Both the position numbers and the translations under genes were made by a program. 64,000 nt of DNA from the NCBI RefSeq assembly GCF_001458735.1, contig NZ_CZQA01000009.1:310001-374000 (forward strand), written 5' to 3'. Source of the stretch: Candidatus Nitrospira nitrosa (GTDB lineage Bacteria > Nitrospirota > Nitrospiria > Nitrospirales > Nitrospiraceae). Numbering within the stretch: the stretch's first letter is position 1; the number at the start of each line of letters is the position of its first letter. Shown piece by piece: positions 35,924 to 55,565 of the stretch. The notes below the pieces were generated by a model that was not told the DNA's origin, ran no database searches, and worked only from the letters and a program-made list of their open reading frames with translations.

Positions 35924-36401
<478 letters not shown>

Positions 36402-36416
36402 ACTCAAATATTTCAA

Positions 36417-37538
36417 CTACTTGGAGGAATGACCCTCAACGGCCATGTCGCTTGGTGTTATTAGGGTGTTAACGTCAAGGTACTTTTGCACCTTCACAGC
36501 AGCATCCGTCAAGTCTTTCTCTTCGATTGAGTTGTATCGCTTCCACATCTTCTCAGACTTGTGCCCCACGATCTTCATCGCGGTTGCTGTATCAACACCG
36601 GCGCGTCGTAGGTTTGTCGATGCACAATGACGGAGATCATGGAATCTAAAGTCAGTGATTCCGGCGTCTCTCAACGCGGTCCTGAAGGACCGGCTAATAC
36701 GTTGAAGCGGTCGGCCCTTGTAGGTGAACACGTGGTTGTTCGTCAGACGGCGAATTTTGGCCAAGCGTTGGAGGGTTGATCGAACGTCTGCGGTCATGGG
36801 AACACGCCGTCCGGTTTTGGTCTTGGTGTCTTGACTTCGAAGGGTGATGAATCCCCGACGGAGATCAACACGGTCCCAGGTGAGAGACACAATCTCCCCG
36901 AACCGTTGGCCGAGTTGATAGGCCGTCAAAAGCACCGGGCGGAGGTGTGGCTTCGCGGCCTGATGTAATCGGCCCCATTCTTCTTCCGTGAGCACCCGAT
37001 CCCGTTCGTTCTGGGGGTTGGGTATGGTTACCCGTGAAGCAGGGTTAGCCTGGAGCAGTCCTCGCTTGATCGCTACGTTCAAGCAATGCTTCAGGGCGAT
37101 GTGATCATGGTTGATGGTCTGAGTGCTGGCCCTTTTTCCGTTTGGCTTCTTTCTTTGGCTGCGGAAGGCTTCTATGTCTTCCGGTCGGATCTCAGAGAGG
37201 ATCCGATGACCGAAGAAGGGTATGAGATGGGTGTTGATGCTATGGGATCGGCCCGCGAACGAACGGAGGCCCTTAACGGTTTCCAGCTCCAGGTACGCCT
37301 TCGCCCATTCTTTAAAGAGGATCGGCTTGGCTTGTTCGGTCTTCTCGTGGCCGAGGAGGAGTCGTGTCCTGATGGTGGCTTCCATCTCCTTGGCAACAGT
37401 CTTATTGAGACACCCCACCTTCCAGCGTTTCCAACGGGCACCGGGTACACCACTCGCGAGAGCCAATGATTTTCCGTCCGCACTTTCGATCACCGGAAAT
37501 TCCACATAGTAACTATCGTGCCGCTTAGTGAGTCCCAT
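36417..37538 (-). CDS. int: tyrosine site-specific integrase
   Basis: A 373-residue phage-type integrase. N-terminal arm domain (about 1-60), core-binding SAM-like domain (about 65-165, including INTHLIPFFGHRILSEIRPE), catalytic domain from about 185. Catalytic residues visible: Arg in LGQRFGEIVSLTW (about 211), Lys in the beta hairpin region (TKTKTGRRVPM), His-x-x-Arg in FHDLRHCAST (about 302), His in VGHKSEK and the nucleophile Tyr in MWKRYNSI (about 335). All are intact, so it is probably active. It cuts and rejoins DNA at att sites. The start (GGAGAGAC upstream) lies inside the end of the excisionase-like gene. Confidence 0.92.
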   Translation of the reverse strand: MGLTKRHDSYYVEFPVIESADGKSLALASGVPGARWKRWKVGCLNKTVAKEMEATIRTRLLLGHEKTEQAKPILFKEWAKAYLELETVKGLRSFAGRSHSINTHLIPFFGHRILSEIRPEDIEAFRSQRKKPNGKRASTQTINHDHIALKHCLNVAIKRGLLQANPASRVTIPNPQNERDRVLTEEEWGRLHQAAKPHLRPVLLTAYQLGQRFGEIVSLTWDRVDLRRGFITLRSQDTKTKTGRRVPMTADVRSTLQRLAKIRRLTNNHVFTYKGRPLQRISRSFRTALRDAGITDFRFHDLRHCASTNLRRAGVDTATAMKIVGHKSEKMWKRYNSIEEKDLTDAAVKVQKYLDVNTLITPSDMAVEGHSSK

Positions 37539-38727: not shown

Positions 38728-39498
38728 TCAACGGTACTCAGTTAGAGCAAGTTCCGAGGGTTCTTCTGCGTGACACTCCCAGAAGCTCCAAGAATAGTCC
38801 ATGGAGATCACTTGATACTCGGTTCGTTTGATGAACCCCGCGTATTCCTCGAGCATCAATTCCTCTACTGGGCACGAATAGGCAATAAGGACACGATGTC
38901 CGCTGGCCGCTTGGAAGCGACGCAGATTCTCAGCGACGTGCTTGAATACTGGCCCCAGAAATGGCCGGTACATGTAAATGAGAAGGTTCGTGTTCGGAAA
39001 CACGAAATCCGCCGCATTGACACAACATACCCGAATATTTCTGCAGAGCAGCTGCTGCATTCCATCGGACAAATACCGCTCCACGTTGGTTTCCGCCACA
39101 TCACAATGCAATGGAGACAGCTCCACCCCGATCACTTCTTTAAAAGGGAGTTGAGCCGCCACAATCAGGGTGCGACCTTTCCCACAGCCCAGGTCTACAA
39201 ACGAATAGGCATTGAGATCGAGCCCCTTCGTCGTGTTGTTCAAAATATGCCGAATGACAACCTCTCTCGTTGGGACATAGCCTACCGCCAGGCTCCGGGC
39301 CGTCTCATCTGCGATACCGGCATCGGACGACTCCGTGACACCGGACGTCACGACCCCATATTTTTTATCGAAGTCATCGTGAGGTTTTTGGCTCAAGAGA
39401 TACAGAATAATCTCCTTGAGCGTCTCCCAGAATCCGAAGACTCGATACGTATTCATCACGATCTTGAACTTGCCCCCGGTGTCAGGGTTGTACTGCAT
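38728..39498 (-). CDS. class I SAM-dependent methyltransferase (DOT1-like type)
   Basis: A 256-residue enzyme. SAM-binding motif I is FVDLGCGKGRTLIVAA (about 101-116), followed by GVELSPLHC (about 125-133). The N-terminal FDKKYGVVTSG and PTREVVIRHIL segments match a bacterial family related in fold to DOT1-like methyltransferases. The ATG at 39498 has AGGAGGAGTC upstream and overlaps the NRPS-C stop by 17 bases, so it is coupled to the synthetase. It is the last gene of the operon and probably methylates the peptide or a precursor. Which atom is methylated cannot be told. Confidence 0.8.
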   Translation of the reverse strand: MQYNPDTGGKFKIVMNTYRVFGFWETLKEIILYLLSQKPHDDFDKKYGVVTSGVTESSDAGIADETARSLAVGYVPTREVVIRHILNNTTKGLDLNAYSFVDLGCGKGRTLIVAAQLPFKEVIGVELSPLHCDVAETNVERYLSDGMQQLLCRNIRVCCVNAADFVFPNTNLLIYMYRPFLGPVFKHVAENLRRFQAASGHRVLIAYSCPVEELMLEEYAGFIKRTEYQVISMDYSWSFWECHAEEPSELALTEYR

Positions 39499-42400
39499 AT
39501 GACTCCTCCTGTGCGCGACCGCCTCGTAGCATAGACAGAATTTCACTGATGCGCTGATGAACCTGAATGCTCCGCACCACATCCGCATGCTCGCCGTGAA
39601 CCGTTTCACTCACCGCGATTCCCCTTGTACACACACTCCAATCAACCGGAGCTTTCCCGTGCTTCCGAAGAGTCGCACTGGTCCACCAGGCATGAATCGG
39701 CGCCTGAAGGGGATTCTGTACGGCCGCGCGTAGCATTCCGGCCGACTCGCGATCCAGAGCATAGGCGACTTTTAGAGCGGCGATGGACGCCTCCGATTCC
39801 TCGCGGGACAGCAGCTTTCGGTCCTGAGCCCATCGAATCCCATATTCCACCCGATCCTCATCGCCCAACCGTTTCAGAGCATCGCTGAGAGCCTGCCGCT
39901 CGACCTCTGGCACAGCCAGGAAGGCCTCTCTACGGTCTCCCTGGATATAGTGGAGCAGTTCTTCCTCGACCGAATCCGTAGAATCCGACATGGTTTGAAA
40001 TTGCGTGTCCAGAATGCCGAGGAAATTGACCGATTGTCCTTGTCGTTCCAGCTGTTGCGCAACAGCCAAAGCGATGGCTCCCCCATTAGACCATCCGAGC
40101 AAGAGATACGGCCCGTCTTTCTGCCTATCTCGAATGATCACGGCATAGCGTGCGGCAATCAGATCCATCGACAGACGATTCCAGGGTTCTGAGAAGATCC
40201 AGCCCAACGGTAATCCATACACCGGCTGCTCCTGGCCCAGCGAATAGGCAACCGATTGATACGCCGCGACGTGCGTCCCGGTCGGATCGAAACAAAAAAG
40301 CGGCGCGCCCTCTCGTCCGGCCTGAAGCACCACGAATGGAGAAGATGCCGCCTCGGCTTGGCCGGAGATCCGTTCCACCAAACCCGCCACCGTCGGGGCC
40401 TGAAAGAGGTCAAGCAGCGCGATCGGATTTCCGATTATCCTCTGGATGCGCGATACGAGCTGCACCGCCGTCAACGAATGACCTCCGAGATCGAAGAAGT
40501 TGTCGTGAATTCCTACTTGCGGCAGGCCAAGCACCTCCGCCCACTCGCGCGCCAACCTCGTTTCCATGTCCGTGCGGGGTGCAACGAACGTCTGTAGCGA
40601 ACCCCGGAGGTCGGGTTCGGGTAATGATCGCCTGTCGACTTTACCGTTGGCATTGCGAGGCAACGACTCCAGCACGACGATAGTGGACGGCACCATATAA
40701 TCGGGCACTCGCTCGCGCAGAAATTCGTGCAGCGTTTCATGAGAGGCGCCTCCCGCCACATACGCGACGAGCCGTTTATCCCCTCCGACATCTTCTTTGA
40801 CCACGACGACAGCCTCGTGCACCTCCGGATGCTCGAGCAGCTGTGCCTCAACCTCTCCTAGCTCAATCCTGAAACCGCGAACCTTGACCTGATGATCCAT
40901 GCGACCGAGAAACTGAATGTCTCCGTTCGGTAAGTACTTGGCCGTATCACCTGTTCGATACAGGCGCGCGCCTGGTTCGCAGGCGAACGGATGGGGAATG
41001 AAGGCCTCTGCCGTCTTGGCCGAATCGCACAAATACCCTCGCCCGACACCGACTCCGGCCACGCACAATTCCCCCACGACTCCGATCGGCAGAGGCTTCA
41101 ATGACGGAGAGAGCACGTAGAGCTCGATGTTGGGTACCGGCCTGCCTACTGGCATGAAAGTTACATGTTCCTCCGGAATCTGCGTCACAGGATACAACGC
41201 GACATCATCCGCACATTCCGCCGGCCCATAGGCGTTGATCAGCGGAACTACTGGGTACCGGGCAAGCCAACGCCGGCAAAGCGATGCAGGTAGCGCCTCT
41301 CCGGTCGGTAATACCATCCGCAGCCGTACGAGCGCCGGTTCGCTCTCGCCGCTATTGGCTGCCATATCGAGCATGCCCTGCAGCATCGCCGGCACGGCCT
41401 CGAGGATTGTGACACCTGCCGCCTCCACATGATGAAGCAGCCGTCCCGGGTCATGCGCGATGTCGTCCGGAACGATGCAAACCCGTCCACCGCACAACAG
41501 CGGAGCCAGAAACTGCCAGATGGAAATATCGAAACACTGGGATGCGGTCTGGGCGATCACGTCGTCCGCGGTCAACTCAAGCGTCTGCAATTTCCCCCAG
41601 AGATGATTGAGCATCCCACGATGCTCGACGATCGCGCCCTTGGGAGTCCCGGTGGAGCCGGAGGTATAGATCACATAGGCGGCGCCCCGTGGATGAACAG
41701 AGGTGAAAGGATTCATCTCGTCGTTCACCGATGACTGGGTCTCTTCCATCGTGAGAAGAGTCGACGGCTCATGCTCCGACAGACCTTCCTGCAGCGGCAT
41801 CACGCGTTGCCGAGAGGTCTCCGTGGTCAACAACACACGCGGTCGGCTTTCAGCGAGCATATGCCTCAGTCGGTGATCCGGATGCCCTGTATCGAGTGGC
41901 AGATACATACCGCCTGTCTTGACGATCCCCAGCAGCATCGCCAAGAAGTCGAGATTTCTGTCACCTAAGACCGCCACGACCATTTCCGGCTCCACGCCCT
42001 TGAGCCGCAACGCATGGGCGACTCGGTTCGCACGACGATTCAACTCCTGATAGGTCACCCGACGATCCATGCAGACAGCGGCCACGCGATCCGGCGTCGC
42101 CGATGCCTGCGCTTCGAACAGCTGCGCAAAAGACCGATCCGGCAATGATAGTCGTGGTCCCACGTTCCAGTCGGTCAGCAAACGTTGCTTCTCGTCGGTC
42201 AACAGCCGCAAATCCTCAATCGTGGTATCGGGCTGCACGGCCATGCCTTGAAGGATCAATTCATAGTGCCGGAGCATGCGCATGACACTGTCGGCGGAAA
42301 ACAGATCGCTGTTGTATTCCATCGACGCCGTCAGCCCGGCTTCGTTTTCGCACAGAGACAACGTCAGATCGAACTTGGCCGTCAGCGGCTCCACATCCAC

Positions 42401-45400
42401 CGTGGCAATCTGGAGTCCCGGAACGGCCAACTCGGAGGTGGGCGCATTTTGTAGTTCAAACATGACTTGAAAAATCGGCGAGTAACTGACGTCACGCACA
42501 GGCTGCAGCACCTCGACCAGTTTTTCAAACGGTACGTCCTGATGCGTGTATGCGCCCAGACAGACCTGTCGGACCAGCGCCAGGAGCTCGCGGATCGTCT
42601 GACTCCCCGACAAGTCGGCCCGCAGCGCCAGCGTATTCACGAAGAAACCGATCAGCCCTTCGATCTCGCTACGAGTGCGGTTGGCAATCGGAGATCCGAC
42701 GACGAGGTCAGGCCGGCCGGTATATTTGAACAATAAGGCATAGAACCCGGCCAGCAAGGTCATGAACAACGTGACGCCCTCGCGTCGGCTGAGCTCGGTC
42801 ATCGCTGAGGACAGTTCGGGCGACAACGACACAGTGAGCGAAGCCCCATGGGAGGTTTGGACCGGAGGTCGCGGATGATCCATCAAAAGGTTCAGCGGCT
42901 CGAGCGCATCTGCCAATCGCTTCTTCCAATAGTCGAGTTGGCGATCTAAGCGCGTACCCGACAGCCATTGTCGCTGCCAGATGGCGAAATCCGCGTATTG
43001 AACCGGGAGTTCCGGAAGTGCCGCCGGTCTGCTTTGGACCTGAGCGACATAGAGCTCGGTCATCTCCCGCACGAGAATATGTGAAGACCAGGCATCGGAC
43101 ACGATGTGGTGCATCGTCAACAATAGGACGTGTTCCTCCACGTCGAGTCTGAGCAGCGTGACGCGCAGCATGGGACCATAAGCCAACTCGAACGGACGCT
43201 GCGCTTCAGCCGTCGCAAGCCGTAAGACGGCCGCCTCCCGTTCGGATTTATCCACATGATGATCGAGCGTGACAACGGGAAGCGGCAGCGCCGTTGCCGG
43301 CGCCACGATTTGTATTGGTTGTCCGTCCGACAACGCCACCGTGGTGCGCAATACTTCGTGCCGCCGAACGAGCTCGTTGACGCTCCATTCAAGAGCCTTG
43401 ACATCGAGTGTCCCCGACAATCGGAGCGCGATCGGAAGATTGTAGGAAGCACCATCCGGTTCCAGTTGCGTCAAGACCCACAGACGCTGCTGGGAAAAGG
43501 ACAGCGGGACCGGCCCGTCATGCTGTACTCGCGAAACCGGCGGCATGTCCATGTCTCCGTCCTGCAAGCGGGCCGACTGTATGGCTTCCGCCAGTTGGGC
43601 CACCGTCGTCGCCTCGAAGAGAGTCCGCAGCGGTAGTTCCACACGAAAGACCGAGCGCACCCGTGCCATGACCTGCGTCGCCAACAATGAATGTCCGCCG
43701 AGATCAAAAAAATCGTCATGAATCCCGATCCGATCCCGCTTGAGGATGGTCGCCCAGATGCCTGTCAGCATCTCTTCCGAGGGATTACGAGGCGCCACAT
43801 AACGGCGATTCGACGCCAGATATGCCTCCGGCTCCGGCAGGAGCGCCCGATCGACTTTCCCGTTCTGATTCAATGGGAGCGCCGGCAGACAGAGCAGGGC
43901 GGTAGGAATCATGTAGTCCGGCAGACATTCCTTTAAAAACTCACGCCATCCTGCCGGTTCACCGGCAGAGTCGCGGGCTACGATATACGCAGCCAGATAT
44001 TTCTCGCCCGCTTGGCTTGCTCGCGCTGTCACGACCGCTTGTTGAATGCCGGGATGTTCGGTAAGACGCGCCTCGATTTCGCCCAATTCAATGCGGTACC
44101 CCCGGAGCTTGATCTGAAAATCGGTTCTGCCGAGGAATTCCACTGTACCGTCCGGCAGAATACGCGCCAGATCACCGGTCTTGTAGAGACGGCTTCCCGG
44201 TTGGGATGCAAAAGGATGAGGCACAAACCGTTGGGCCGTGAGATCGGGCCGTCCAAGATACCCACGCGCCAGTCCCGCCCCGCCGAGATAGAGTTCTCCG
44301 GGTATACCGACGGGTAACTGATCGAGCCGCTCGTCCAAAATATAGGCTTCTGCATTGTCGATCGGACGACCGATCGGCACGGTCGTAGAGAGTCGTACGT
44401 CTTCATGCTGCGCCTCGACCGGAAAAGTCAGGCACCCGATCGTCGTCTCCGTCGGCCCGTAATGATTCAGCAAACGACAGCGCCCGGACGCCGTTATGTG
44501 GTCGGCGAGCGCATGAGATAACACATCCCCTCCAAGGACGAGCTGCCCCCGTGGCAGCACCTCGTGGTCCTCCGCCGTCGCAAGCAACGATTGGAAATGG
44601 GCCGGCACTATCTTCAGCACGTCGATCGGATGATTGGCACAATACTCTCCGAACTTCCGTCCATCCGTGGCCGTGTCGTACCCAATCACATGCAGGCACC
44701 CGCCGGATACGAGCGACGCAAAGATCACGGTATTTCCGAGATCGGCGCTGAGGGTTGAGACGGTGGCATAACTCAGGCCGGCCTCGGCATGTACCGCTCG
44801 GCAGATGTAGCCCGTGTAGTTCACCACACCGAGATGAGTAACGGCGACGCCTTTCGGAACACCGGTCGATCCCGAGGTATAGATCACATAGGCCAGTTCC
44901 ATCGGGTGAACCATCCGATCAGGATTGCCGGACGGCTCCTCCGCAAACGCCCAGTCCTGGAAATCCAGCCCGAGCGCCGTCGTCCCGGTGGCGGGTAGGC
45001 GCTGCCGCCATTTCGCCTGCGTCAGCACGACGGCGATCCCAGCCTGCGCAATCTCAAACGTCAGGCGCACCATAGAGTTCTCCGGATCGAGCGGCACATA
45101 GGCGGCGCCGGATTTAAGTACTCCCAACAATCCGGCCACCATTTCGACCGAGCGCTCGACACACAATCCCACGAGATCGCCTTGTCCCACTCCCCTCCTG
45201 TTCAGTCCATGCGCAACCTGGTTGGCTCTGGCATTCAATTCAGCGTAGGTGAGGCGGCAGTCGCCGCAGACGACGGCGGTCGCATCAGGCCGCGCTTCGG
45301 CTTGATGTTCGAACAGAGTCACGAGAGATTGTGCAGTCTGGAGTGGATGTGCGGTGCCGTGGCCTGTGTGCAGCAATCGGCTCCGCTTGGATTCGCTCAG

Positions 45401-46696
45401 CAAGGGCAGCAGCCCGACGCAGGTCTCCGGCTGCGCCGCCGCACCGGTGAGCACAGCAGTCATGGCTTCTCTCAGGATCGAAAGCGCCGCCGTATGAACC
45501 AGTTTCGAATCGGCCTGCAGTCGCAACTGGATCGACCGGCTTCGTCTCGTACAGGTCAAGGTCAGCTTGAGTGGCTCGAATCGGACAGCCGACGGCTCGA
45601 ACGAGAAGACGATATCTCCGGTCTGCGCGAACGATCCCAGTGTTTGAAACTCAAATCCCACTAGTTCCGTCGTTGTAAAGTCGATTCCTTCGGCCCTGCC
45701 GTCCCACAGGAAGTACTCCTGCCACTCTCGTACCTGCTGCTGGTCGGACCAGACTGCAGCCGCCAGCTCCCGAAATGGTGTGTCCAGGTCGATCCGGCAC
45801 CGCAGAGGCACCCACTTGGCGAAGAGTCCCATCCCCGACTCCAGCTCGTCGTATTTTCTCCCGTCGCTGAGCAGAGCCATGAGATATTCCGGACGGTCAC
45901 CGACCCGGCCCAGCACGACCTGCCAGGCGGCCAACAGCAACGCTTCTACCGGCGTCTCATACCGTTCGGACAGAGCCAGCAACGATGCAACAACTTCTCC
46001 ACTCAAGTTCCAGACAAGCGTCTCTGTCGGCCAGCCGCCGGTCTCTTGTCGTGTACACTCGAACGGTAACGTCATCGAAGCTTGGTCTACCAGCATGTCT
46101 CCCCAGAACCGCCGGCCATTGGCAGCATCCTGGTCCGCGAGCAACTCGTTCTGCCATTCGGCAAACTGGGTGTACTGCACCGGTTCCTCATGACCCTTAT
46201 GCCCGGCGGCGCCGTAACCGGCGGCGATCTCACCGGCCAAGTTATGAAGCGTCCTGGCATCGGCGCACATGGCCGGTAGGCTGATCAGAAGCCAATGCTC
46301 GTGATCCGACAGTCGGCACAGAGTGCAGCGGACCGGCGGCCCCTGTTCCCAATCAATCGTCTGACGACGATGCTCCTCCAACAGCTCATCACGTGTTGTT
46401 GCGCGCATCGCCGCGTCGGTTGACTGAATATCGACGGTCTCCCAGACGGGCCTGCAGTCCTCAGCGATGACTTGTAAAGGTACCTTTACCCCTGGTTCCC
46501 TGCAGAATAGCGTTCGAAACGCTTCGTGTTTGTCCACCGCCGCATGCACAGCCCGTTCGAGGCGGACGCGGTCCAGTATGCCCTGGATGCTCAGTGTTCC
46601 CTGAGTCCAGACGGCTCCGAACGTTTGTTGAAGCACCCACAGACGCTTTTGTTGAGGAGAAAGCCGGAACCCTTGTACAGCTATAGTCGGTTGCAT
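39482..46696 (-). CDS. NRPS-C: Cx-A(Asp)-PCP-C-A(X)-PCP-TE
   Basis: A 2404-residue terminal NRPS. Residues about 10-440: condensation-like domain in which the HHxxxDG motif is replaced by SLPAMCADA (about 142), so it is probably not catalytic. About 455-960: adenylation (YTSGSTGVPKG about 609); code read by hand D-L-T-K-V-G-H-I-G-K, the known Asp code. PCP about 1000 (LGGHS). C2 with HHIVSDAW (about 1199). A2 (about 1679) with code D-I-W-E-L-T-A-D-D-K, unassigned. PCP2 about 2072. Thioesterase about 2130-2390 with GWSNG (Ser about 2201), which releases or cyclises the product. ATG seven bases past NRPS-B. Confidence 0.95.
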   Translation of the reverse strand: MQPTIAVQGFRLSPQQKRLWVLQQTFGAVWTQGTLSIQGILDRVRLERAVHAAVDKHEAFRTLFCREPGVKVPLQVIAEDCRPVWETVDIQSTDAAMRATTRDELLEEHRRQTIDWEQGPPVRCTLCRLSDHEHWLLISLPAMCADARTLHNLAGEIAAGYGAAGHKGHEEPVQYTQFAEWQNELLADQDAANGRRFWGDMLVDQASMTLPFECTRQETGGWPTETLVWNLSGEVVASLLALSERYETPVEALLLAAWQVVLGRVGDRPEYLMALLSDGRKYDELESGMGLFAKWVPLRCRIDLDTPFRELAAAVWSDQQQVREWQEYFLWDGRAEGIDFTTTELVGFEFQTLGSFAQTGDIVFSFEPSAVRFEPLKLTLTCTRRSRSIQLRLQADSKLVHTAALSILREAMTAVLTGAAAQPETCVGLLPLLSESKRSRLLHTGHGTAHPLQTAQSLVTLFEHQAEARPDATAVVCGDCRLTYAELNARANQVAHGLNRRGVGQGDLVGLCVERSVEMVAGLLGVLKSGAAYVPLDPENSMVRLTFEIAQAGIAVVLTQAKWRQRLPATGTTALGLDFQDWAFAEEPSGNPDRMVHPMELAYVIYTSGSTGVPKGVAVTHLGVVNYTGYICRAVHAEAGLSYATVSTLSADLGNTVIFASLVSGGCLHVIGYDTATDGRKFGEYCANHPIDVLKIVPAHFQSLLATAEDHEVLPRGQLVLGGDVLSHALADHITASGRCRLLNHYGPTETTIGCLTFPVEAQHEDVRLSTTVPIGRPIDNAEAYILDERLDQLPVGIPGELYLGGAGLARGYLGRPDLTAQRFVPHPFASQPGSRLYKTGDLARILPDGTVEFLGRTDFQIKLRGYRIELGEIEARLTEHPGIQQAVVTARASQAGEKYLAAYIVARDSAGEPAGWREFLKECLPDYMIPTALLCLPALPLNQNGKVDRALLPEPEAYLASNRRYVAPRNPSEEMLTGIWATILKRDRIGIHDDFFDLGGHSLLATQVMARVRSVFRVELPLRTLFEATTVAQLAEAIQSARLQDGDMDMPPVSRVQHDGPVPLSFSQQRLWVLTQLEPDGASYNLPIALRLSGTLDVKALEWSVNELVRRHEVLRTTVALSDGQPIQIVAPATALPLPVVTLDHHVDKSEREAAVLRLATAEAQRPFELAYGPMLRVTLLRLDVEEHVLLLTMHHIVSDAWSSHILVREMTELYVAQVQSRPAALPELPVQYADFAIWQRQWLSGTRLDRQLDYWKKRLADALEPLNLLMDHPRPPVQTSHGASLTVSLSPELSSAMTELSRREGVTLFMTLLAGFYALLFKYTGRPDLVVGSPIANRTRSEIEGLIGFFVNTLALRADLSGSQTIRELLALVRQVCLGAYTHQDVPFEKLVEVLQPVRDVSYSPIFQVMFELQNAPTSELAVPGLQIATVDVEPLTAKFDLTLSLCENEAGLTASMEYNSDLFSADSVMRMLRHYELILQGMAVQPDTTIEDLRLLTDEKQRLLTDWNVGPRLSLPDRSFAQLFEAQASATPDRVAAVCMDRRVTYQELNRRANRVAHALRLKGVEPEMVVAVLGDRNLDFLAMLLGIVKTGGMYLPLDTGHPDHRLRHMLAESRPRVLLTTETSRQRVMPLQEGLSEHEPSTLLTMEETQSSVNDEMNPFTSVHPRGAAYVIYTSGSTGTPKGAIVEHRGMLNHLWGKLQTLELTADDVIAQTASQCFDISIWQFLAPLLCGGRVCIVPDDIAHDPGRLLHHVEAAGVTILEAVPAMLQGMLDMAANSGESEPALVRLRMVLPTGEALPASLCRRWLARYPVVPLINAYGPAECADDVALYPVTQIPEEHVTFMPVGRPVPNIELYVLSPSLKPLPIGVVGELCVAGVGVGRGYLCDSAKTAEAFIPHPFACEPGARLYRTGDTAKYLPNGDIQFLGRMDHQVKVRGFRIELGEVEAQLLEHPEVHEAVVVVKEDVGGDKRLVAYVAGGASHETLHEFLRERVPDYMVPSTIVVLESLPRNANGKVDRRSLPEPDLRGSLQTFVAPRTDMETRLAREWAEVLGLPQVGIHDNFFDLGGHSLTAVQLVSRIQRIIGNPIALLDLFQAPTVAGLVERISGQAEAASSPFVVLQAGREGAPLFCFDPTGTHVAAYQSVAYSLGQEQPVYGLPLGWIFSEPWNRLSMDLIAARYAVIIRDRQKDGPYLLLGWSNGGAIALAVAQQLERQGQSVNFLGILDTQFQTMSDSTDSVEEELLHYIQGDRREAFLAVPEVERQALSDALKRLGDEDRVEYGIRWAQDRKLLSREESEASIAALKVAYALDRESAGMLRAAVQNPLQAPIHAWWTSATLRKHGKAPVDWSVCTRGIAVSETVHGEHADVVRSIQVHQRISEILSMLRGGRAQEESYAVQP

Positions 46697-46703
46697 GACG
46701 CCT

Positions 46704-49700
46704 CTATACAGTCACTGCGAGAACATCTCGTTGATTGATCATCTCTCCCATCGCCACGACGATCTTCCGCGGTCCGACGAACGGCAATCGGGCGTGGGCT
46801 ACCAGCATGTTGTCGAGCATAAGCAGGTCTCCGTTTTGCCAGGGAAACCGGACCGACGTCCGTTCATAGAGTTCACCGATTTCCGCCGCCACGTCATCCT
46901 CGATCGGAGAGCCGTCGCCGAAGTACACATTGCGCGGTACTCGCTCGATGCCCAGCACATCGACCAGAGAACTTCGGACCGCCGGCTCAAGGTACGAGAT
47001 GTGATGCAGTTGAATCTGGTTGAAGAACACCCAGTCGCCGGTTCTTGGGTGCTTGATGATGGCCGGACAGATCTGTCTGGTGCGCAGCCCTCCGTCGGAC
47101 GTCCAATCCCATTCGACACCGTGCTGTCGACAGATCTGTTCGACGACGGCCTTGTCATCGGCATGAAAGAAATCCTGCCAGCTGACGTCGAAACCGGGAG
47201 TGAAATTTCTCACATACATCAGCGCCAGTTCCTGAAATTTCTCACGCAACTCCGGTCGCAGGCGTTCACACATTTTTCGGCAATCCACGATGGGCGTCTC
47301 CCCACCCTGCTGCGCCGCTTGCACGCAGAAGAACGACTGTTTCAACGGCCATCGATGCAAATGTGAGCTTTCGTTGTGAAAGAGAATGGTCCGGTCGGCC
47401 GGATAGGGCGTGGATCCGTACAGATGCCGCCCGGCTTTCTCCCGCGGCAGATCCCCGTATTCGCCGAACAGCGTGGGGCATAGCGCCTGAGCGACCTGCT
47501 CGAAATCCTCAGCTCCCTTGAGCGAAAATCCTCGAAACAGGATGGCTCCGTGCGCGAGTAACTCCTGCTCAACCTTCTCCCGATTGTCTTGTCCCCACGC
47601 GGCCAGATCTACGTCCTCGACCGCCGGTTGTATGACCAGAGGCAGAGTCTGATCCGCCTCGAGATATCCACGCTCGACCAGCGTCCGCTGAGCGAGCGGC
47701 ACCGCCTTCGGCTGAATGTTCTTGAACCGTTTGAACCTGCTTTCCTCACGTTGTTTGGCTTCGATCATGGCAGACTCCTTTTCCGTATGAGACAAGATCT
47801 CGATCGCGGACAGCCTGGCCTCCGGATGGGCGACGATGCTCCCGAGCAGTGTCACGAACCGATCCGACAAGACGGCGATCGTAGAGGCATCCAATAGGTC
47901 CGTGTTATATTGCCAGAGGCCTGTCAAACCATCCTCAGCGTCTTCCATAAACAAGGCGAGATCGAACCGTGCCACCTCGCTTTCGAACTCGAGCGCCCCG
48001 ACTTCCAGTCCCGGCAGTTCCATGGAAGGCGGCGGCACGTTTTGCAGGACAAGGAGCGCCTGAACCAGTGGATTGCCTCCCAAATCGCGCTTGAGCTTCA
48101 GGGCTTCCACAATTTTTTCAAACGGCAGGTCCTGATGCGCATAGGCCTCCAACGCTGTCCGTCGTACCTGCCCCAGCAACTCCAGGAAGGTAGGATTACT
48201 GCCGAGGTCGGTACGGAGCGGCAGGAGGTTCACGAAAAAACCGATCAATCCTTCCGTCTCTTCACGGTTGCGGTTGGCCACGTCGGTGCCGACCAGAATA
48301 TCTTCCTGTCCCGTCGTACGGAAAAGCAGAGTGTTGAATGCCGCCAGAAACGTCATGAACAGGGTCACGCCCTGCTTGCGGCTCAACGCGCGCAGCCGGT
48401 CGGCGTGCTCTGCGGGGATCGTGAAGAGGTGACGGGCGCCACGAAAAGTCTGCACGGCGGGACGCGGCCGGTCCGTCGGCAATTTCAAGACCGGCGGGTT
48501 GACGCCCAACCGTTGCTTCCAATAGGCGAGATGCCCGTCCAGCACCGATCCTTGCAGCCGCTGTCGCTGCCAGCGGGCGAAATCCGCGTACTGAATAGGC
48601 AATGTCGGCAGCACCTCGCCCAAGTTGCCCGCTTGCCCGACCAGAGCCTGATAGAAGACCGCCACCTCGTTGGCCAACAGCGTCATCGACCAAGCATCCG
48701 CAGCAATATGATGGAGTGTGACGAGCAAGACGTAGTGCCGCTCGGCCAAACGGAGCAGCCTGGCGCGAATGGGCCGGTCCTGATCCAACCGGAACGACCG
48801 CCGGACCTCCACTGAGGCGGCTTCGCGTACGGCCTCATCCCGCCGGTCGTCAGGCAGTCCGCTCAGATCATCAAGTGGCAGGACGAACTCATCCGCCGTG
48901 CCGATGAGCTGTACCGGTTCGCCGTTGACCTCGCGGAACGTCGTTCTCAGTGTTTCGTGTCTGGCGATCACTTGCTCGAAACTCTTCGACAAGGCATCGG
49001 CATCGAGCGTGCCAGTGAGTCGTAAAGCAAACGGGAGATTGTACGACCACCCGTCCGGCTCCAACTGTGACAGGAACCACAAGCGTTGCTGGGCAAAGGA
49101 CAATGGGAGCGGCCCAAGTCGATCGAGAGATACAAGCGGTGCGGATGTGACCTTATCTTCACCAGAACATGCTTGCTCAATAACAGCACTCAGCGCCTCA
49201 ACCGTCGGCGCCTCGAAAAGGTTTCGAAGCGGCAAGTCGATCTGGAACGAGGTCCGGATGCGAGAAACGACCTGCGTGGCGAGCAGCGAATGGCCGCCCA
49301 GTTCGAAGAAATTGTCGTGAATGCCGACATGCTTCACGCCGAGGATTTCGGCCCAGATCCCAGCCACAATTTCCTCAACCGCAGTGCGGGGAGCATCACC
49401 GCAGGGTGACAGGTCCGAATCCTCCGGCATGGGAAGAGCCTTTCGATCAATCTTGCCGTTAGGCGTCAACGGCAGGGAATCCAGGAACATCACCACGGCA
49501 GGGACCATGTAGTCCGGCAACGTTTCGGCCGTGAACGATCGAATCATCGAGGCATCGCGCGCGGTGCTTTCGCTCACAACATACGCCACCAGCCGCTTGT
49601 CTCCCGGCCGGTCTTCCCGGGCCATCACGACCGTCTCACGCACGGCAGGATGCTGACGCAGGCGCGATTCGATCTCCCCGAGTTCGATACGATGGCCACG

Positions 49701-52700
49701 AATTTTCACCTGATGATCGACACGGCCCAGAAACTCCAGTGTTCCGTCAAGCCTATACCGAGCCTGATCACCGGTTCGATAGAGCCGCTGTCCCGGTTTC
49801 GTCCCAAATGGATCGGGAGTGAATCGCTCAGCAGTCAAATCTGGCCGTTGCCAGTACCCTCTCGCTACCCCATCGCCGCCGATATATAGTTCTCCCGACA
49901 CTCCTATCGGGACAAGATTGGCTTCTGCATCGAGCAGATAAATCTGCGTGCTCGCGATCGCTCGTCCCAACGGAACGGCCTCATCACACTCGCTCACACG
50001 AGCCATCATCGACCATACGGTCGTCTCGGTCGGTCCATAGAGATTCCATATCTCAAGGCCTTGAGCGAGAAACTTGTTCGCTAACTCACGTGACAAGGCT
50101 TCACCACCACACAGCACACGTACCGGAGGGACAGCCCCGGCATCGAGCAACAGGCGCCATCCTGAAGGCGTTGCCTGCATGACGGTGACGCCTCTCTGGA
50201 CCAGTGCCTGTGCCAATCGAGGCCCATCGACAACGATGTCGCGGCTAAGCACGACCACTTTGGCCCCCACCACCAGTGGCAGGAACCATTCCAAGAGCGC
50301 GATGTCGAACGAGATGGAGGTCGTCGCCGCCAGCACATCCTGACTGGACAGCTGTAACGTATCCTGCATGGCTAAGAGAAAATTCACGGCACTGCCCTGT
50401 CGGACCATCACCCCCTTAGGTCGACCAGTTGATCCCGATGTGTAGATGACATAGGCCAGCTGATCGAGGCTGCGGGGAACAGGTGGTTTTTCCCTCGACT
50501 CACGGCCAATCAGTTCCCAGTCGTACAGATCGATCACCGCCCGTTGTTTGATCTCAAGGTTGACCGGTAGCGATCCCTGCGCCACCACTACCGAGACCTG
50601 GGCATCATGCAGCATGTAGCTTAGCCGTTCAGTCGGATATGTCGGATCTAGCGGAACGTAGGCGCCGCCAGCCTTGAGAACTCCCAGCATCGCGACCAAC
50701 AGATTTCTCGATCGCTCCAGACAGATTCCCACTTTCACATCCGGCCCCACACCTCGCTTGCGCAAGTAGTGCGCCAACTGATTCGCTTTAGCATCGAGCT
50801 CCCGATAGGTCACGTCCACACCGTTGTCCGATAGGGCGATACGTTCAGGCGTCCGAGCCACTTGCGTTTCGAATAAATCAGGCAAACACTGGTCGCCCAT
50901 GTTGAATCGTCGCTGGTCGCACCAGTCCTTCAAGAGCTGTTGGCGTTCTTGATCGGAGAGAATGGACAATTCGGACAACCGAGCGTCCGGCTTCCTGATC
51001 ATCTCATCCAAGATGCCGGTCCAATGGCGGACGACCTGCCCAATCATCTCGTCACTCAGGCGACGACGATCGTAGGAAAAGATGGCTGTGAGTCGTTCTT
51101 CCGGCACCACGGTGATCGTGAGTGGATAGTTCGTCCACCCTTCGACATCGACGGACTCGATACCGAACGTACTGCCGTATTCCTGAACCGTCTTGTCGAG
51201 AAGATAGTTTTGAAACACGAGTACGCTGTCGAACAGGGATGTTCCCCGTTGGATATCACTCCATCCTTGAATCTGCACCAGCGGAGTCGCCTCATACTGG
51301 CGCAGCTCGACGTTGACCGCTTGCAGGGTTCGAAGCCAGTCTCCGAGCTGCTCGACCGGCACCATCCGCACCCGTAGCGGCATGGTATTGATGAACACAC
51401 CAAGAACGGAATCGCTGCCCATCAACTCCTGAGGTCTGCCCGAAACCGTCACGCCGAACATGACATCGCCGGTATCGCAGTACCGACGGAGCAACAAGGC
51501 CCAGGCCCCTTGAATGACCGTGTTCAGCGTCACATGCTGAAATCGAGCCAACTGCTCCAGGCCTCGCAAGACTGAAGGGGGTAACTCCACACGCTGTTCA
51601 CCGTAAGGCGCGGACTCGGCAGCAGAATCCGCTACCTGCTCTGGTAATCGAGTCGGCTGTTCGAAACCACGCAGATACTCCCGCCAAAACTGCTCGGCCG
51701 CTGAGAGGTCCTGCTGCAACGACCACCGGATGTATTCCCGATAAGAAGGCGCAGGGGTCACCGCCACGGCCTCGCCACGTCGAAGGCGTTCGTAAGTAGT
51801 CATGACCTCCTGCACCAACAACGCCTGGCACGATCCATCCAAAATCGCATGATGCAAACTCCAGACGATCCACCACGAGCGCTCCGTCCGTCGGATCAAC
51901 GTCAGACGCATCAGCGGCGGTCGATCAAATGTGAATCCGCGAAGACGGTCGGCCGAGAGATAGTCCCGCAACACGTCTTGCCTGGCAGCCTCATGGGCGA
52001 GATGCCGCCAATCGAGATGTTCCACGGACAACTGAGCACGACGGACCACGGCCTGCAGCAGTTCGGGCGCAACGTCCCACACGAATCCCGTCCTGAGAAT
52101 TGTGTGCCGATCCACTGCATGCTGCCAGGCATCCTCAAATACCTCCGGGTCCAGTCCTTGGGTGAACGCATAAACGACCTGATTGTGATAGGCCCCCGCG
52201 TCTTCACCATGGAGACTATGAAACAACATCCCCTGCTGGATCGGTGACGCGGGATAGAGATCCTCGAGTTCTGCTCCATGAAGAGCCAGGAGCGTGCGGA
52301 CCTGTTCCTCATGACCCCCTGCGAATGCAAACGGTTTCGAGGTAACCGTCTCCGCACGCCCGATAGGCTCATCCACCACAGAACCGGCGGCTTCAAGAGC
52401 GGCTGCGATAGCCGCCACTGTATTATGTTGAAAGACTAGTTTCGGGCTCACCTTGAGAGCCGCCCGATGGGCCCTTGCCACCACCTGGAGACAGAGGATC
52501 GAATCGCCTCCGATTGTAAAGAAATTGTCATGGATGCCTACGCGATCCAGATGAAGGACCTCCCCCCAGATCTGCGCGAGCGTCGTTTCGACCTCGTTTC
52601 GGGGAGAGACATAGGAGTCATTCGGCTGCGCCCGCCCCTGTTCCGGATCCGGAAGCGCCGCTCGGTCGATCTTGCCGTTAGCGGTAAGAGGAAGTGCTTC

Positions 52701-55565
52701 CAGCACAGTGATGGTCGAAGGAATCATATAGTCCGGCAAAAGAACCGCCAGACAAGACCGAACCGCGTCCGGATCGAGATCGGCCGGCGCCGCCACATAG
52801 GCGGCAAGCTGCTTGGTCCCGTCGGCCGCTTCGCGCACGACTACAACGGCATCCTTGACTCGACTATCGCTCCGCAACTGCGCTTCGATCTCTCCCAACT
52901 CGACCCGGAACCCTCGGACCTTTACTTGATTGTCCACGCGGCCTTGGAATTCGACGGAACCGTCTGGTCGATATCGCGCCCGATCTCCGGTACGGTACAG
53001 ACGAGCACCGGCCAGCCCGCCGAACGGATTCGGCACGAATCGCTCCGCGGTCAGGTCAGGCCGATCGAGATACCCCCTCGCCAACCCCCCACCTCCGATA
53101 CACAACTCGCCGGAGACTCCCACCGGTGCGGGTTCACCATCCTGGTTCAAAATGAACACTTGGCTGTTGACCAAAGGCCGTCCGATAGGAATGCTGCCGT
53201 GCACGTCCCCTTCTAGGTCAATGTGATGGGTGAGTACTCCGATCGTCGTTTCCGTGGGGCCGTAGTGATTGATCATTCGGCAATCGGGTGCAAGGGTTCG
53301 GATCCGTTCGACCAGGCTGCGATGAACGGCTTCGCCGCCGAGGATCAAGCAACGCCGTGGAAGCACATGTTCAGGCCGTCCTGCTTCCAGTAGGCCTGCC
53401 AGATGGCTCGGTACGATTTTTAGGACGTCGATCCGGTGACCGGTCATGTAGTCCGCGACGGCGTCGGGATCGAATCCCCGATCTACCGACAGGACATGAA
53501 GAGTACGACCCGAACAGAGTGAACCGAAGATAGAGGTATTGCCGAGATCCGCCGCGACCGTGGATACGGTCGCGAAACTGGCCATCTCGTCGAGCGAGAG
53601 ACGCTCCATGAGTCCTGACACGTAGTTGACAACCTGTCGATGCTCTACGGCGACGCCCTTCGGTCGTCCGGTGGACCCGGACGTATAGATGACGTAAGCC
53701 AAATTCTCCGGTCGTACGTCTCGCCTCAACGGTTGATCAGCTCCAGCCAAGATGGCCGGCCAGTCGCGGTCCAGATAAATTTGTCGCACAGTCGTGTCAT
53801 GGGAGAGGTCCCCGGTTGCGACCTGCATGAGGACCACCCGTGCGTCGCTGTCCGACAGCATAAAAGCCAACCGTTCTTTCGGAAGCTTCGGGTCAAGCGC
53901 CACATAGGCACCACCCGATTTGAGCACGCCGAGCAATCCGACGATCAAGTCCAGCGATCGTTCCACACAGAGTCCCACCCGCACGTCAGGACCGACTCCG
54001 AGATTTTGCAAATACCGGGCAAGCTGATCCGCTTTGGCATTCAACTCTCCATAGGTCAAAGACCGTCCCTCATAGACGACGGCGGTGGTATCCGGCTGTT
54101 CCTGTGCCCGCTGCTCAATCCGTTCATGGATACATTCTTCGTCCACCGGAACCGTGGTGCGGTTCCAGTCCATCAAAAGGCGGATTCGCTCTCCATCGCC
54201 GAGCGGAGACAGTTCCGCCAACCGAGCCTCCGGCCGCTCCGCCATCGTCATCAACAAGGTGCGGTAGTACCCGATGAGCCGCTTGATGTCCTCGTGCGCA
54301 AACCGCTCACGCGCATAGGACAGAATCAACCGCACCTCTGCCGCCGGTTCGACCATCAGCGAGAGTGGATAGTTATTACGACCAGCCGTCAAAACATACT
54401 CGGCATCCTGTCGGGGTGGAGCCATGGGCGTGATTCTCAAGCCGAGCTGATCCTGGTCGCTCTCATCCTCCGGGTAACTTTCAAAAACCAGGATGCTCTC
54501 GAACAACGACCGCCCTCCCGACACGTCGCTCCAGCGCTGAATTCTCGACAGGGGTGTCCACTCATACTGCCGCAGCAGGCTGTTCTGTTCTTGGAGCGAG
54601 GCAAGCCAATCCCCCAGCTTGGCATCTGGAGAGATGGTGACTCGAACCGGCAACGTGTTGATGAACAGTCCAACCATGACGTCTGAGCCGGGGAGTTCCG
54701 CCGGCCGCCCCGAGACCGTCGCGCCGAACAGGACTTCGCGTTCTCCGGTGCAGCGGTGCAACAGGATCGACCACGCTCCTTGCGCTAATGTGTTGAAGGT
54801 GAGCCGCCGCCGTTTGGCGGAAGTGGTCAACGTTTCGACTTCTGCCTTCGACAGGCGCAGTTCCTGTTCCGCATATGGCAGAGATTTCAGTTCTTCCGAG
54901 GTCACTTGTTGCGGCGTCTGCAGCGGCAACGCCGTTGGTGTCTCAAATCCCGCCAGATTGGTCCGCCAAAACGTCTCGGCAGCCTGCAAGTCGCGGCTCC
55001 GCAACCAGTTGAGGTACTCGGCATAGGGTCTCACGGGCGGCAGCAACGGCTGCCGCCTCTGCACGAGCGCGTCGTAACAGATCAGCACCTCACGCAACAA
55101 CAACGCGACACTCCAACCATCCAGTAAAATATGGTGGTGGCTGTTGATGAAATACCAGCGACTGTCCTCGATTCTGATCAGTGTGAGCCGCATCATGGGC
55201 GGCAGAAGCAGATCAAACGGCTTTCGACGATCCTCGCGCAGAAGGACCGCCAGCGATTCGTCCCAGGATTCACTGTGGTGGGCACGCCAATCGAGGATTT
55301 GAAGTGGAACCCGCACATCGCGCCGCGCGACCTGCATAGGCTGCTTGACGCCCTCCCAGACGAAACTGGTGCGCAGGATGGGATGACGCTCCATCACCGT
55401 GCGCCAGGCCTCCTCAAATGATTTGAGGTCCAGCTCTCCGTCAATGACGAAGCCGGTCTGCGTGAAATAAGGATCCGCGGCCGCGTCGGACACGGCATGG
55501 AAGAGCAATCCTTCCTGAAGAGGAGAAAGATAGTGAATTGATTCGATGTCTTTTTTCTTACTCAT
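46704..55565 (-). CDS. NRPS-B: C-A(Asp)-PCP-C-A(Gly)-PCP-C-TauD hydroxylase
   Basis: A 2953-residue NRPS. C1 HHHILLDGWS (about 145). A1 (about 630) code D-L-T-K-I-G-H-I-G-K, Asp. PCP1 IGGDS (about 1018). C2 HHAILDG (about 1239). A2 (about 1713) code D-I-L-Q-L-G-L-V-W-K, Gly. PCP2 LGGHS (about 2090). C3 with HHIAADAW (about 2288). Then, in place of A-PCP, a TauD/SyrP-like Fe(II)/2-oxoglutarate dioxygenase (about 2600-2953): HNESSH (iron His and Glu, about 2733), GGETPIVDCRK, and distal His in LVAHARLPF with GPRKIVVAM (about 2923). It should beta-hydroxylate a carrier-bound residue, most likely Asp on the next protein. Starts 16 bases after NRPS-A. Confidence 0.95.
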   Translation of the reverse strand: MSKKKDIESIHYLSPLQEGLLFHAVSDAAADPYFTQTGFVIDGELDLKSFEEAWRTVMERHPILRTSFVWEGVKQPMQVARRDVRVPLQILDWRAHHSESWDESLAVLLREDRRKPFDLLLPPMMRLTLIRIEDSRWYFINSHHHILLDGWSVALLLREVLICYDALVQRRQPLLPPVRPYAEYLNWLRSRDLQAAETFWRTNLAGFETPTALPLQTPQQVTSEELKSLPYAEQELRLSKAEVETLTTSAKRRRLTFNTLAQGAWSILLHRCTGEREVLFGATVSGRPAELPGSDVMVGLFINTLPVRVTISPDAKLGDWLASLQEQNSLLRQYEWTPLSRIQRWSDVSGGRSLFESILVFESYPEDESDQDQLGLRITPMAPPRQDAEYVLTAGRNNYPLSLMVEPAAEVRLILSYARERFAHEDIKRLIGYYRTLLMTMAERPEARLAELSPLGDGERIRLLMDWNRTTVPVDEECIHERIEQRAQEQPDTTAVVYEGRSLTYGELNAKADQLARYLQNLGVGPDVRVGLCVERSLDLIVGLLGVLKSGGAYVALDPKLPKERLAFMLSDSDARVVLMQVATGDLSHDTTVRQIYLDRDWPAILAGADQPLRRDVRPENLAYVIYTSGSTGRPKGVAVEHRQVVNYVSGLMERLSLDEMASFATVSTVAADLGNTSIFGSLCSGRTLHVLSVDRGFDPDAVADYMTGHRIDVLKIVPSHLAGLLEAGRPEHVLPRRCLILGGEAVHRSLVERIRTLAPDCRMINHYGPTETTIGVLTHHIDLEGDVHGSIPIGRPLVNSQVFILNQDGEPAPVGVSGELCIGGGGLARGYLDRPDLTAERFVPNPFGGLAGARLYRTGDRARYRPDGSVEFQGRVDNQVKVRGFRVELGEIEAQLRSDSRVKDAVVVVREAADGTKQLAAYVAAPADLDPDAVRSCLAVLLPDYMIPSTITVLEALPLTANGKIDRAALPDPEQGRAQPNDSYVSPRNEVETTLAQIWGEVLHLDRVGIHDNFFTIGGDSILCLQVVARAHRAALKVSPKLVFQHNTVAAIAAALEAAGSVVDEPIGRAETVTSKPFAFAGGHEEQVRTLLALHGAELEDLYPASPIQQGMLFHSLHGEDAGAYHNQVVYAFTQGLDPEVFEDAWQHAVDRHTILRTGFVWDVAPELLQAVVRRAQLSVEHLDWRHLAHEAARQDVLRDYLSADRLRGFTFDRPPLMRLTLIRRTERSWWIVWSLHHAILDGSCQALLVQEVMTTYERLRRGEAVAVTPAPSYREYIRWSLQQDLSAAEQFWREYLRGFEQPTRLPEQVADSAAESAPYGEQRVELPPSVLRGLEQLARFQHVTLNTVIQGAWALLLRRYCDTGDVMFGVTVSGRPQELMGSDSVLGVFINTMPLRVRMVPVEQLGDWLRTLQAVNVELRQYEATPLVQIQGWSDIQRGTSLFDSVLVFQNYLLDKTVQEYGSTFGIESVDVEGWTNYPLTITVVPEERLTAIFSYDRRRLSDEMIGQVVRHWTGILDEMIRKPDARLSELSILSDQERQQLLKDWCDQRRFNMGDQCLPDLFETQVARTPERIALSDNGVDVTYRELDAKANQLAHYLRKRGVGPDVKVGICLERSRNLLVAMLGVLKAGGAYVPLDPTYPTERLSYMLHDAQVSVVVAQGSLPVNLEIKQRAVIDLYDWELIGRESREKPPVPRSLDQLAYVIYTSGSTGRPKGVMVRQGSAVNFLLAMQDTLQLSSQDVLAATTSISFDIALLEWFLPLVVGAKVVVLSRDIVVDGPRLAQALVQRGVTVMQATPSGWRLLLDAGAVPPVRVLCGGEALSRELANKFLAQGLEIWNLYGPTETTVWSMMARVSECDEAVPLGRAIASTQIYLLDAEANLVPIGVSGELYIGGDGVARGYWQRPDLTAERFTPDPFGTKPGQRLYRTGDQARYRLDGTLEFLGRVDHQVKIRGHRIELGEIESRLRQHPAVRETVVMAREDRPGDKRLVAYVVSESTARDASMIRSFTAETLPDYMVPAVVMFLDSLPLTPNGKIDRKALPMPEDSDLSPCGDAPRTAVEEIVAGIWAEILGVKHVGIHDNFFELGGHSLLATQVVSRIRTSFQIDLPLRNLFEAPTVEALSAVIEQACSGEDKVTSAPLVSLDRLGPLPLSFAQQRLWFLSQLEPDGWSYNLPFALRLTGTLDADALSKSFEQVIARHETLRTTFREVNGEPVQLIGTADEFVLPLDDLSGLPDDRRDEAVREAASVEVRRSFRLDQDRPIRARLLRLAERHYVLLVTLHHIAADAWSMTLLANEVAVFYQALVGQAGNLGEVLPTLPIQYADFARWQRQRLQGSVLDGHLAYWKQRLGVNPPVLKLPTDRPRPAVQTFRGARHLFTIPAEHADRLRALSRKQGVTLFMTFLAAFNTLLFRTTGQEDILVGTDVANRNREETEGLIGFFVNLLPLRTDLGSNPTFLELLGQVRRTALEAYAHQDLPFEKIVEALKLKRDLGGNPLVQALLVLQNVPPPSMELPGLEVGALEFESEVARFDLALFMEDAEDGLTGLWQYNTDLLDASTIAVLSDRFVTLLGSIVAHPEARLSAIEILSHTEKESAMIEAKQREESRFKRFKNIQPKAVPLAQRTLVERGYLEADQTLPLVIQPAVEDVDLAAWGQDNREKVEQELLAHGAILFRGFSLKGAEDFEQVAQALCPTLFGEYGDLPREKAGRHLYGSTPYPADRTILFHNESSHLHRWPLKQSFFCVQAAQQGGETPIVDCRKMCERLRPELREKFQELALMYVRNFTPGFDVSWQDFFHADDKAVVEQICRQHGVEWDWTSDGGLRTRQICPAIIKHPRTGDWVFFNQIQLHHISYLEPAVRSSLVDVLGIERVPRNVYFGDGSPIEDDVAAEIGELYERTSVRFPWQNGDLLMLDNMLVAHARLPFVGPRKIVVAMGEMINQRDVLAVTV

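Follow-up and report, generated by a model that had tools for sequence, protein, structure and literature searches.

We analysed 64,000 nucleotides (nt) of DNA from Candidatus Nitrospira nitrosa (contig NZ_CZQA01000009.1, positions 310,001 to 374,000); this whole stretch, part of a single contig (C9) in a genome of 4.4 Mb, is called the window. Three nonribosomal peptide synthetases (NRPSs), NRPS-A, NRPS-B and NRPS-C, all lie on its minus strand and span positions 63453 to 39482 (Table 1). NRPS-B ends with a condensation (C) domain, C3, followed by a TauD-family hydroxylase. NRPS-C opens with a condensation-like domain carrying SLPAMCADA, here called the interface-type (I) domain, directly before an adenylation (A) domain for aspartate and a carrier (T) domain. 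This layout had been proposed in the initial annotation, and domains, motif and A-domain code all bear it out. Very probably, the two protein ends form one split beta-hydroxyaspartate module of a lipopeptide siderophore line, C3-hydroxylase / I-A(Asp)-T, with the I domain as the landing site of the hydroxylase.

Table 1. Features of the synthetase line and of related loci. Coordinates are window positions unless a locus is named; aa, amino acids; E, epimerization domain; TE, thioesterase.
Feature	Coordinates	Strand	Description
NRPS-A	55582..63453	-	C-A-T-C-A-T-E; upstream synthetase of the same cluster
NRPS-B	46704..55565	-	C1-A1(Asp)-T(GGDSI)-C2-A2(DILQLGLVW)-T-C3-hydroxylase
NRPS-C	39482..46696	-	I-A1(Asp)-T-C-A2(DIWELTADD)-T-TE
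NRPS-B module 1 (C1 HHHILLDG + A1 DLTKIGHIG, Asp)	52587..55538 (approximate bounds)	-	second Asp module, without I domain
GGDSI carrier motif, NRPS-B module 1	52497..52511	-	no E domain after it
C3 of NRPS-B	47775..49109	-	condensation domain, aa 2153-2597; HHIAADA at aa 2285 (HHxxxD kept)
TauD-family hydroxylase, NRPS-B C-terminus	46704..47639	-	aa 2648-2938; Fe(II)/2-oxoglutarate type
NRPS-B stop / NRPS-C start gap, 7 nt	46697..46703	-	module cut here
I (interface-type) domain, NRPS-C start	45368..46678	-	condensation family, catalytic histidines lost
SLPAMCADA, degenerate HHxxxDG	46256..46282	-	aa 139-147 of NRPS-C
A1 of NRPS-C, signature DLTKVGHIG (Asp)	43781..45313 (approximate bounds)	-	nine signature columns
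T1 of NRPS-C, GGHSL	43580..43768	-	ordinary carrier; predicted site of hydroxylated Asp
Stand-alone Asp-hydroxylase-like gene	L003 10019-11146, G000:C9:380019-381146	-	I-less (TbetaH-like) clade; no I domain after it
NRPS-0, two modules	L003 3462-10139	-	both carriers GGDSI, no E domain follows
Free hydroxylase + I + His-type A module	L131 8766-11095, L132 10277-12606 (G288, G199)		same module as the window's

The NRPS-B protein matches the TauD Pfam family with an E value of 4e-46. Its residues H2730-x-E2732, H2924 and R2933 are invariant columns in alignments of 11 and of 84 sequences, and their roles are known from the TauD family. At the start of NRPS-C, SLPAMCADA keeps the aspartate of HHxxxD and has lost both histidines. 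Only about 15 residues follow the last conserved hydroxylase motif, and about 8 precede the I fold. The A domain behind it reads DLTKVGHIG, with the nine signature columns set by eye on this domain from the GrsA positions. This is an Asp code: DLTKVGHVGK is given as Asp in a passage of PMC10391617 and as Asp/Asn in one of PMC12283262.

In the module that we propose, A1 of NRPS-C would load Asp onto T1. The I domain, with its catalytic histidines lost, would make no bond and would instead bring the C-terminal hydroxylase of NRPS-B to the Asp on T1. The hydroxylase, using Fe(II) and 2-oxoglutarate, would add the beta-hydroxyl group. C3 of NRPS-B, with its motif intact and predicted to form the bond for the next, split module, would then join the growing peptide to the hydroxylated Asp. 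We infer both the landing-site role of the I domain and this order of hydroxylation and condensation.

That the I domain belongs to a separate class is evident from its relatives. C, I and hydroxylase domains were mapped with three hidden Markov models built from the window and the first relatives. Where the motif could be resolved, HHxxxD is kept in 351 of the 359 domains best scored by the ordinary C model and in 0 of the 137 best scored by the I model, all 137 of which keep the D; these counts include near-copies, related by descent and not independent trials. Because the I model was built from domains chosen for the lost motif, a tree free of the motif columns was needed as an independent check. 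In such a tree (50 rows, full search) the I rows stand alone (18/18, support 100/100). The same picture emerges from a larger tree, with 107 domains taken from 38 selected loci: 40/40 I rows are on one side of a branch marked 100*. Besides these 40 it holds 13 rows that are E-type or divergent and 54 C rows (the cluster's own nine plus 45 taken at random from the rest); domains covering fewer than 330 model positions and most minus-strand rows were left out, and the I row of L009 was added by hand. C3 is placed there among C domains with HHIVSDG-like motifs. Any LCL or DCL labels were assigned in this analysis, by motif and position. The I domain of NRPS-C thus lacks HHxxxDG and, whether the motif columns are included or not, branches separately from the catalytic C clades, as the initial annotation had anticipated. 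That a single domain had lost its motif by chance was a further candidate, rejected by the 137 resolved I domains and by the motif-free clade.

The I domains also have conserved residues of their own. A comparison of 128 I with 287 well-scoring C domains yielded G9, Q15, P141, C144, N152, E180, Y282, W325, Y328, F329, K377 and C382 (NRPS-C numbering), which are conserved in I domains and rare in C domains. The class is retained in five phyla, and the window's I domain is only 24-35% identical to most I domains outside its nearest kin. Nine I-domain matches (E up to 1e-10) were found in its own genome, all in this cluster; the domain itself scores 992 bits and the others at most 81. The modelled I domain of a relative (Fischerella, L117) resembles solved C domains with Z scores of 25 to 29. 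Glycopeptide X domains are among its structural matches (Z 25.0 to 25.5), a likeness in fold only. The X domain has a condensation fold, recruits tailoring cytochromes P450 to the carrier-bound chain and sits elsewhere in the line. Titles of the PDB entries in question (the 4tx2, 4tx3, 6m7l group) name complexes with OxyA/OxyB, and among the 37 PDB sequences matched no chain is named as an interface domain.

The fused hydroxylase falls into a clade of 21 rows that includes the fused enzyme of cyanochelin B (support 100/100 in a tree of 42 rows). It therefore groups with an enzyme of known beta-hydroxyaspartate product, as the initial annotation had supposed. The 42 rows are a subset of a 97-row tree; those left out include L016, L135 and L102 as well as L019, L138 and L139, I-less hydroxylases placed elsewhere than in the I-less clade. 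Fused enzymes of Janthinobacterium, Eleftheria, Azospirillum and Variovorax belong to the same hydroxylase clade and to the same I clade. In both hydroxylase trees the fused enzymes of Proteobacteria and Cyanobacteria fall together in a single clade, and the trees do not tell IbetaH_Asp and CyanoBH_Asp1/2 apart. Reitz et al. (2019, PNAS) reportedly defined IbetaH_Asp as a C-terminal fused Asp beta-hydroxylase together with a non-canonical domain of the C superfamily before an Asp A domain. The window matches this layout in the fused hydroxylase behind a C domain, in the HHxxxDG-less domain directly before the A domain and in the Asp code. A passage of the eLife survey names the classes IBH_Asp, TBH_Asp and CyanoBH_Asp1/2.

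The best-characterised counterpart is the cyanochelin B line of Leptolyngbya sp. NIES-3755 (AP017310.1, CcsFGH/CcsI; gene names by order in PMC12628792, anchored by BAU16015 and BAU16061). Its hydroxylase is likewise fused to the end of an NRPS and, at 62% identity, is the top plasmid match among the matches listed. At the start of the next NRPS stand a C-like domain with the degenerate motif TLPALCADT and an A domain whose code, DLTKIGHVG, is for Asp; the module is split between two proteins as in the window. According to passages of PMC12628792, the residue after the fused enzyme is assigned as L-threo-beta-hydroxyaspartate; both beta-hydroxyaspartate positions, experimentally threo in the same passages, lie at I-bearing modules. 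A rule quoted there has the fused type give 3S, and we would expect an L-threo product at the NRPS-C residue, with the caution, from a passage of PMC7100376, that stereochemical prediction needs care across wider origins. The two systems also differ. Their I domains are only about 30% identical, and the stand-alone hydroxylase of cyanochelin B also precedes an I domain, whereas that of the window's cluster does not. Cyanochelin B further has a thiazoline-forming part and a polyketide synthase (PKS) part (passages of PMC12628792).

The initial annotation knew this layout mainly from proteobacterial pathways and expected its split across two proteins in such a genome to be new; neither expectation is borne out by the loci covered here. 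When 80 named loci are ranked by likeness to the window, among the matches listed, 60 are cyanobacterial by title; the other 20 are Nitrospira-type, Sorangium, Acidobacteria-type and one 'marine bacterium' record that occurs twice. The split, in turn, is the rule. For 100 of the 104 distinct fused-class hydroxylases (above 480 bits, a cut set from the scores) the I domain that follows lies in a different frame; in none does it share the frame. The I domain lies within 300 nt of the hydroxylase in 87 of these 100; the farthest is 3.3 kb away, with other sequence between. A C domain precedes the hydroxylase in the same frame in 103 of the 104 (with a resolved HHxxxD in 102), so that in the window and in 103/104 relatives a TauD-family hydroxylase sits at an NRPS C-terminus behind a C domain. 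The remaining locus, L123, has an I domain and no C domain before the hydroxylase, with only 354 nt of contig upstream. In L053 and L128, which have no I domain, the sequence ends within 325 nt. The same cut occurs on plasmids of L. boryana, Nostoc, Gloeothece, Janthinobacterium, Eleftheria, Azospirillum and Variovorax. A natural one-frame hydroxylase-I fusion, sought for modelling, was absent among the 100. The finding is therefore real but of a known kind, the usual two-protein joint of hydroxylase and I domain.

Within the phylum the pairing is close as well. A scan of 395 genomes, in which the four best candidates per genome were scored and further I domains could be missed, gave 26 I matches of at least 413 bits in 24 genomes; the next match has 285 bits. 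A hydroxylase lies 28 to 463 nt from each of the 26, in a long NRPS frame in 22 cases and free in four (compared by hand). Searching for the hydroxylase itself at E 1e-40 found it in 26 of the 395 genomes. Two of them, G139 and G206, have no strong I match, and their hydroxylases belong to the I-less clade. G240 and G204, genomes from a different family of the order, each carry two hydroxylase-I pairs, one fused and one free.

What happens when the hydroxylase is not fused can be seen in the genus itself. At the corresponding position G288 and G199 have a C domain (MHHIISDA) at the end of one protein, then a free hydroxylase, an I domain (LPGYCVDG) and an A domain reading DSALIAEVW. These free hydroxylases belong to another clade, together with I-paired free cyanobacterial enzymes (100/99). 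The I domain is thus retained where the hydroxylase is a free protein, and it follows the hydroxylase and not the fusion. A passage of PMC12283262 gives DSALIAEVW as a His code accepting a beta-hydroxyl group. By their A-domain codes, Asp and His versions occupy one module position within one genus.

Asp is nevertheless the usual residue. A DLTK code follows the I domain in 106 of 117 A domains and another C domain in 20 of 185, a count that includes near-copies and was made without the short loci L001, L002, L020-L027, L029 and L031-L041. The 11 other codes after an I domain are DSALIAEVW (three times, in two own-genus genomes and one Nostoc), SSRDVAMGI (twice), DATKVGEVG, DATKIGEVG, DMTKVGHVG, DAWQFGLID and two that are partial or empty. 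For Tistrella, a passage of PMC10391617 gives Asn/Asp as the residue loaded with the code DATKIGEVGK. The two SSRDVAMGI codes stand in L113 (2135-3451) and L118 (2210-3526), where an I domain and a free hydroxylase precede the A domain.

The cluster has a second hydroxylase. The genome has only two TauD matches (E up to 0.001): besides the fused domain there is a stand-alone gene, located about 6 kb past the window end. Its product falls into a clade of nine I-less enzymes (100/99, 42-row tree) that includes a Tistrella mobilis enzyme, which we take to be MobD from its record and position; in the 97-row tree the I-less clade has 12 rows, and seven I-less rows lie outside it. MobD, a stand-alone TbetaHAsp enzyme, goes with a GGDSI carrier and gives L-erythro-beta-hydroxyaspartate (passage of PMC10391617). 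NRPS-B module 1 has just such a carrier without an E domain. The fused hydroxylase differs from this type, since it is not a stand-alone gene, lies in the other clade, has an I partner and serves a GGHSL carrier. Carriers divide along the same line: counting modules with a carrier motif found, GGDSI occurs in 20/20 Asp modules behind an ordinary C domain (in 19 of them no E domain was found downstream) and GGHSL in 91 of the 94 E-less Asp modules behind an I domain. Because of carrier motifs and hydroxylase clades, we assign NRPS-C module 1 to the fused hydroxylase and, less firmly, NRPS-B module 1 to the stand-alone enzyme. Both ways of hydroxylating Asp thus seem to be present together in one cluster.

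Several other explanations of the I domain have to be weighed. One could argue that it is a normal condensation domain, or one that still catalyses, and that C3 is redundant. It does belong to the condensation family by sequence, and the structural likeness of the L117 domain points the same way, but a class that lacks HHxxxD throughout and branches apart from C and E domains, next to a C3 that has the motif, makes this idea hardly credible. That the domain is a decaying remnant without function fits the lost motif and the low identity among most I domains; a remnant would, however, not be expected to form one clade with its own conserved residues in five phyla, and we consider decay very improbable. 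A stronger case can be made for a docking element, with the I domain mainly joining NRPS-B to NRPS-C and hydroxylase recruitment either secondary or one and the same contact. The cut lies between hydroxylase and I domain in all 100 cases that could be followed, the short stretches between the two folds leave little room for a separate docking domain, and a read-through model reaches a predicted template modelling score (pTM) of 0.70, though with no inter-domain error value. Yet I domains are kept beside free hydroxylases, so their presence tracks the hydroxylase and not the fusion, and a mainly docking role seems doubtful to us. Since the cut falls precisely at this point whenever an I domain follows, and a docking domain would find little room, we tentatively suggest that the hydroxylase-I contact might also be the joint that holds NRPS-B and NRPS-C together, and that this joint could be exchanged around a constant I domain, Asp going with a fused hydroxylase and His with a free one.

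The fused hydroxylase could also act elsewhere, for example on the Asp of NRPS-B module 1 or on free Asp. Module 1 has an Asp code as well (DLTKIGHIG), and GGDSI is not specific: among E-less modules that stand behind an ordinary C domain and are not for Asp, 6 of 115 have it, as do both carriers of NRPS-0. The NRPS-0 carriers make GGDSI weaker as a mark of hydroxylation, and the motif may instead track the type of C domain downstream of it. Still, I domain and hydroxylase pair at NRPS-C module 1, the carriers of Asp modules differ behind ordinary C and I domains, and a second hydroxylase from the clade of the presumed MobD is at hand, all of which renders action elsewhere improbable. Some observations weigh against the landing-site explanation itself. 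L071 and L116 have hydroxylases without an I domain, although 4.9 and 2.6 kb of contig from metagenome-assembled genomes follow, and L125 (11031-14950) has a second I domain (LPAMSADA) with no hydroxylase directly before it and the A code DAWQFGLID. In the 97-row tree two free, I-less hydroxylases on long branches (L016, L135) lie inside the fused clade, and a free, I-paired one (L102) lies at it. The pairing counts come from rows related by descent and are not independent trials. AlphaFold models of read-through chains gave no proof of a hydroxylase-I contact: the Fischerella chain (pTM 0.70, mean predicted local distance difference test score 88.1) has good domains and a disordered linker, an earlier run with fewer rows (pTM 0.59) has a poor hydroxylase half, and neither gave an inter-domain error. 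Hence the initial match to the beta-hydroxyaspartate layout stands as far as the identity of the parts is concerned, while the positioning of the hydroxylase by the I domain is a role that we suggest for it.

The surroundings of the module bear on the product. Past the window lie NRPS-0, the stand-alone TauD gene, a phosphopantetheinyl transferase, a type II TE and an acylase of the penicillin-amidase type; a diaminobutyrate (Dab) transaminase and a cyclic-peptide exporter, each over its cut-off (NCBIfam for the transaminase), and a PKS; an acyl-ligase-like protein with C-A-T, which we read as a fatty acyl-AMP ligase; and then a TonB receptor, FecR, an extracytoplasmic function (ECF) sigma factor and a PepSY protein. 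The signature columns are DIWELTADD and DVWHISLID in NRPS-0, DIWELTADD twice in NRPS-A, DLTKIGHIG and DILQLGLVW in NRPS-B, and DLTKVGHIG and DIWELTADD in NRPS-C. We take these codes, from NRPS-0 to NRPS-C, to be Dab, Ser, Dab, Dab, Asp, Gly, Asp, Dab, with Dab, Ser and Gly as presumed readings; A2 of NRPS-B is presumably of the Gly type. Passages of PMC10391617 and PMC12283262 back the Asp code.

From its four DIWELTADD domains and the Dab transaminase we would predict a Dab-rich cationic lipopeptide. The same features would fit a cationic antimicrobial lipopeptide made by the same module chemistry, as for turnercyclamycin, which a passage of PMC12971057 names as a non-metallophore. An antimicrobial product seems unlikely here, given the TonB receptor, ECF sigma factor/FecR, PepSY and exporter genes at the cluster. 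These are genes of siderophore type, and a siderophore function of the cluster product is what they suggest.

Beta-hydroxyaspartate is an iron-binding amino acid, and our results amount to a concrete prediction of a chelating module for Nitrospira, a key group of nitrifiers. If the cluster does hold both Asp-hydroxylation systems, it offers a clean internal test of the role of the I domain. The close pairing and the Asp and His variants at one position would also be natural parts for making hydroxylated residues. A passage of a 2026 eLife survey counts 16 metallophore regions in 15 of 307 Nitrospirota genomes, with the chelator class not stated there. NRPS clusters in Nitrospira are reported in a passage of PMC9765116, and siderophore production is asserted, with no structure given, in one of PMC9693385. 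A literature search on Nitrospira siderophores gave no paper on this cluster among the matches listed, and one for interface domain together with hydroxyaspartate found nothing.

Two further observations concern the 3' end of the cluster. A methyltransferase-like open reading frame (38728-39609, minus strand, start codon uncertain) overlaps the 3' end of NRPS-C and may be a tailoring gene. A phage-type integrase and a Fic protein (34060-37538, minus strand) adjoin the cluster, and the cluster part of the window has a GC content of 58.8% compared with 54.8% for positions 1-36400, possibly the edge of an island.

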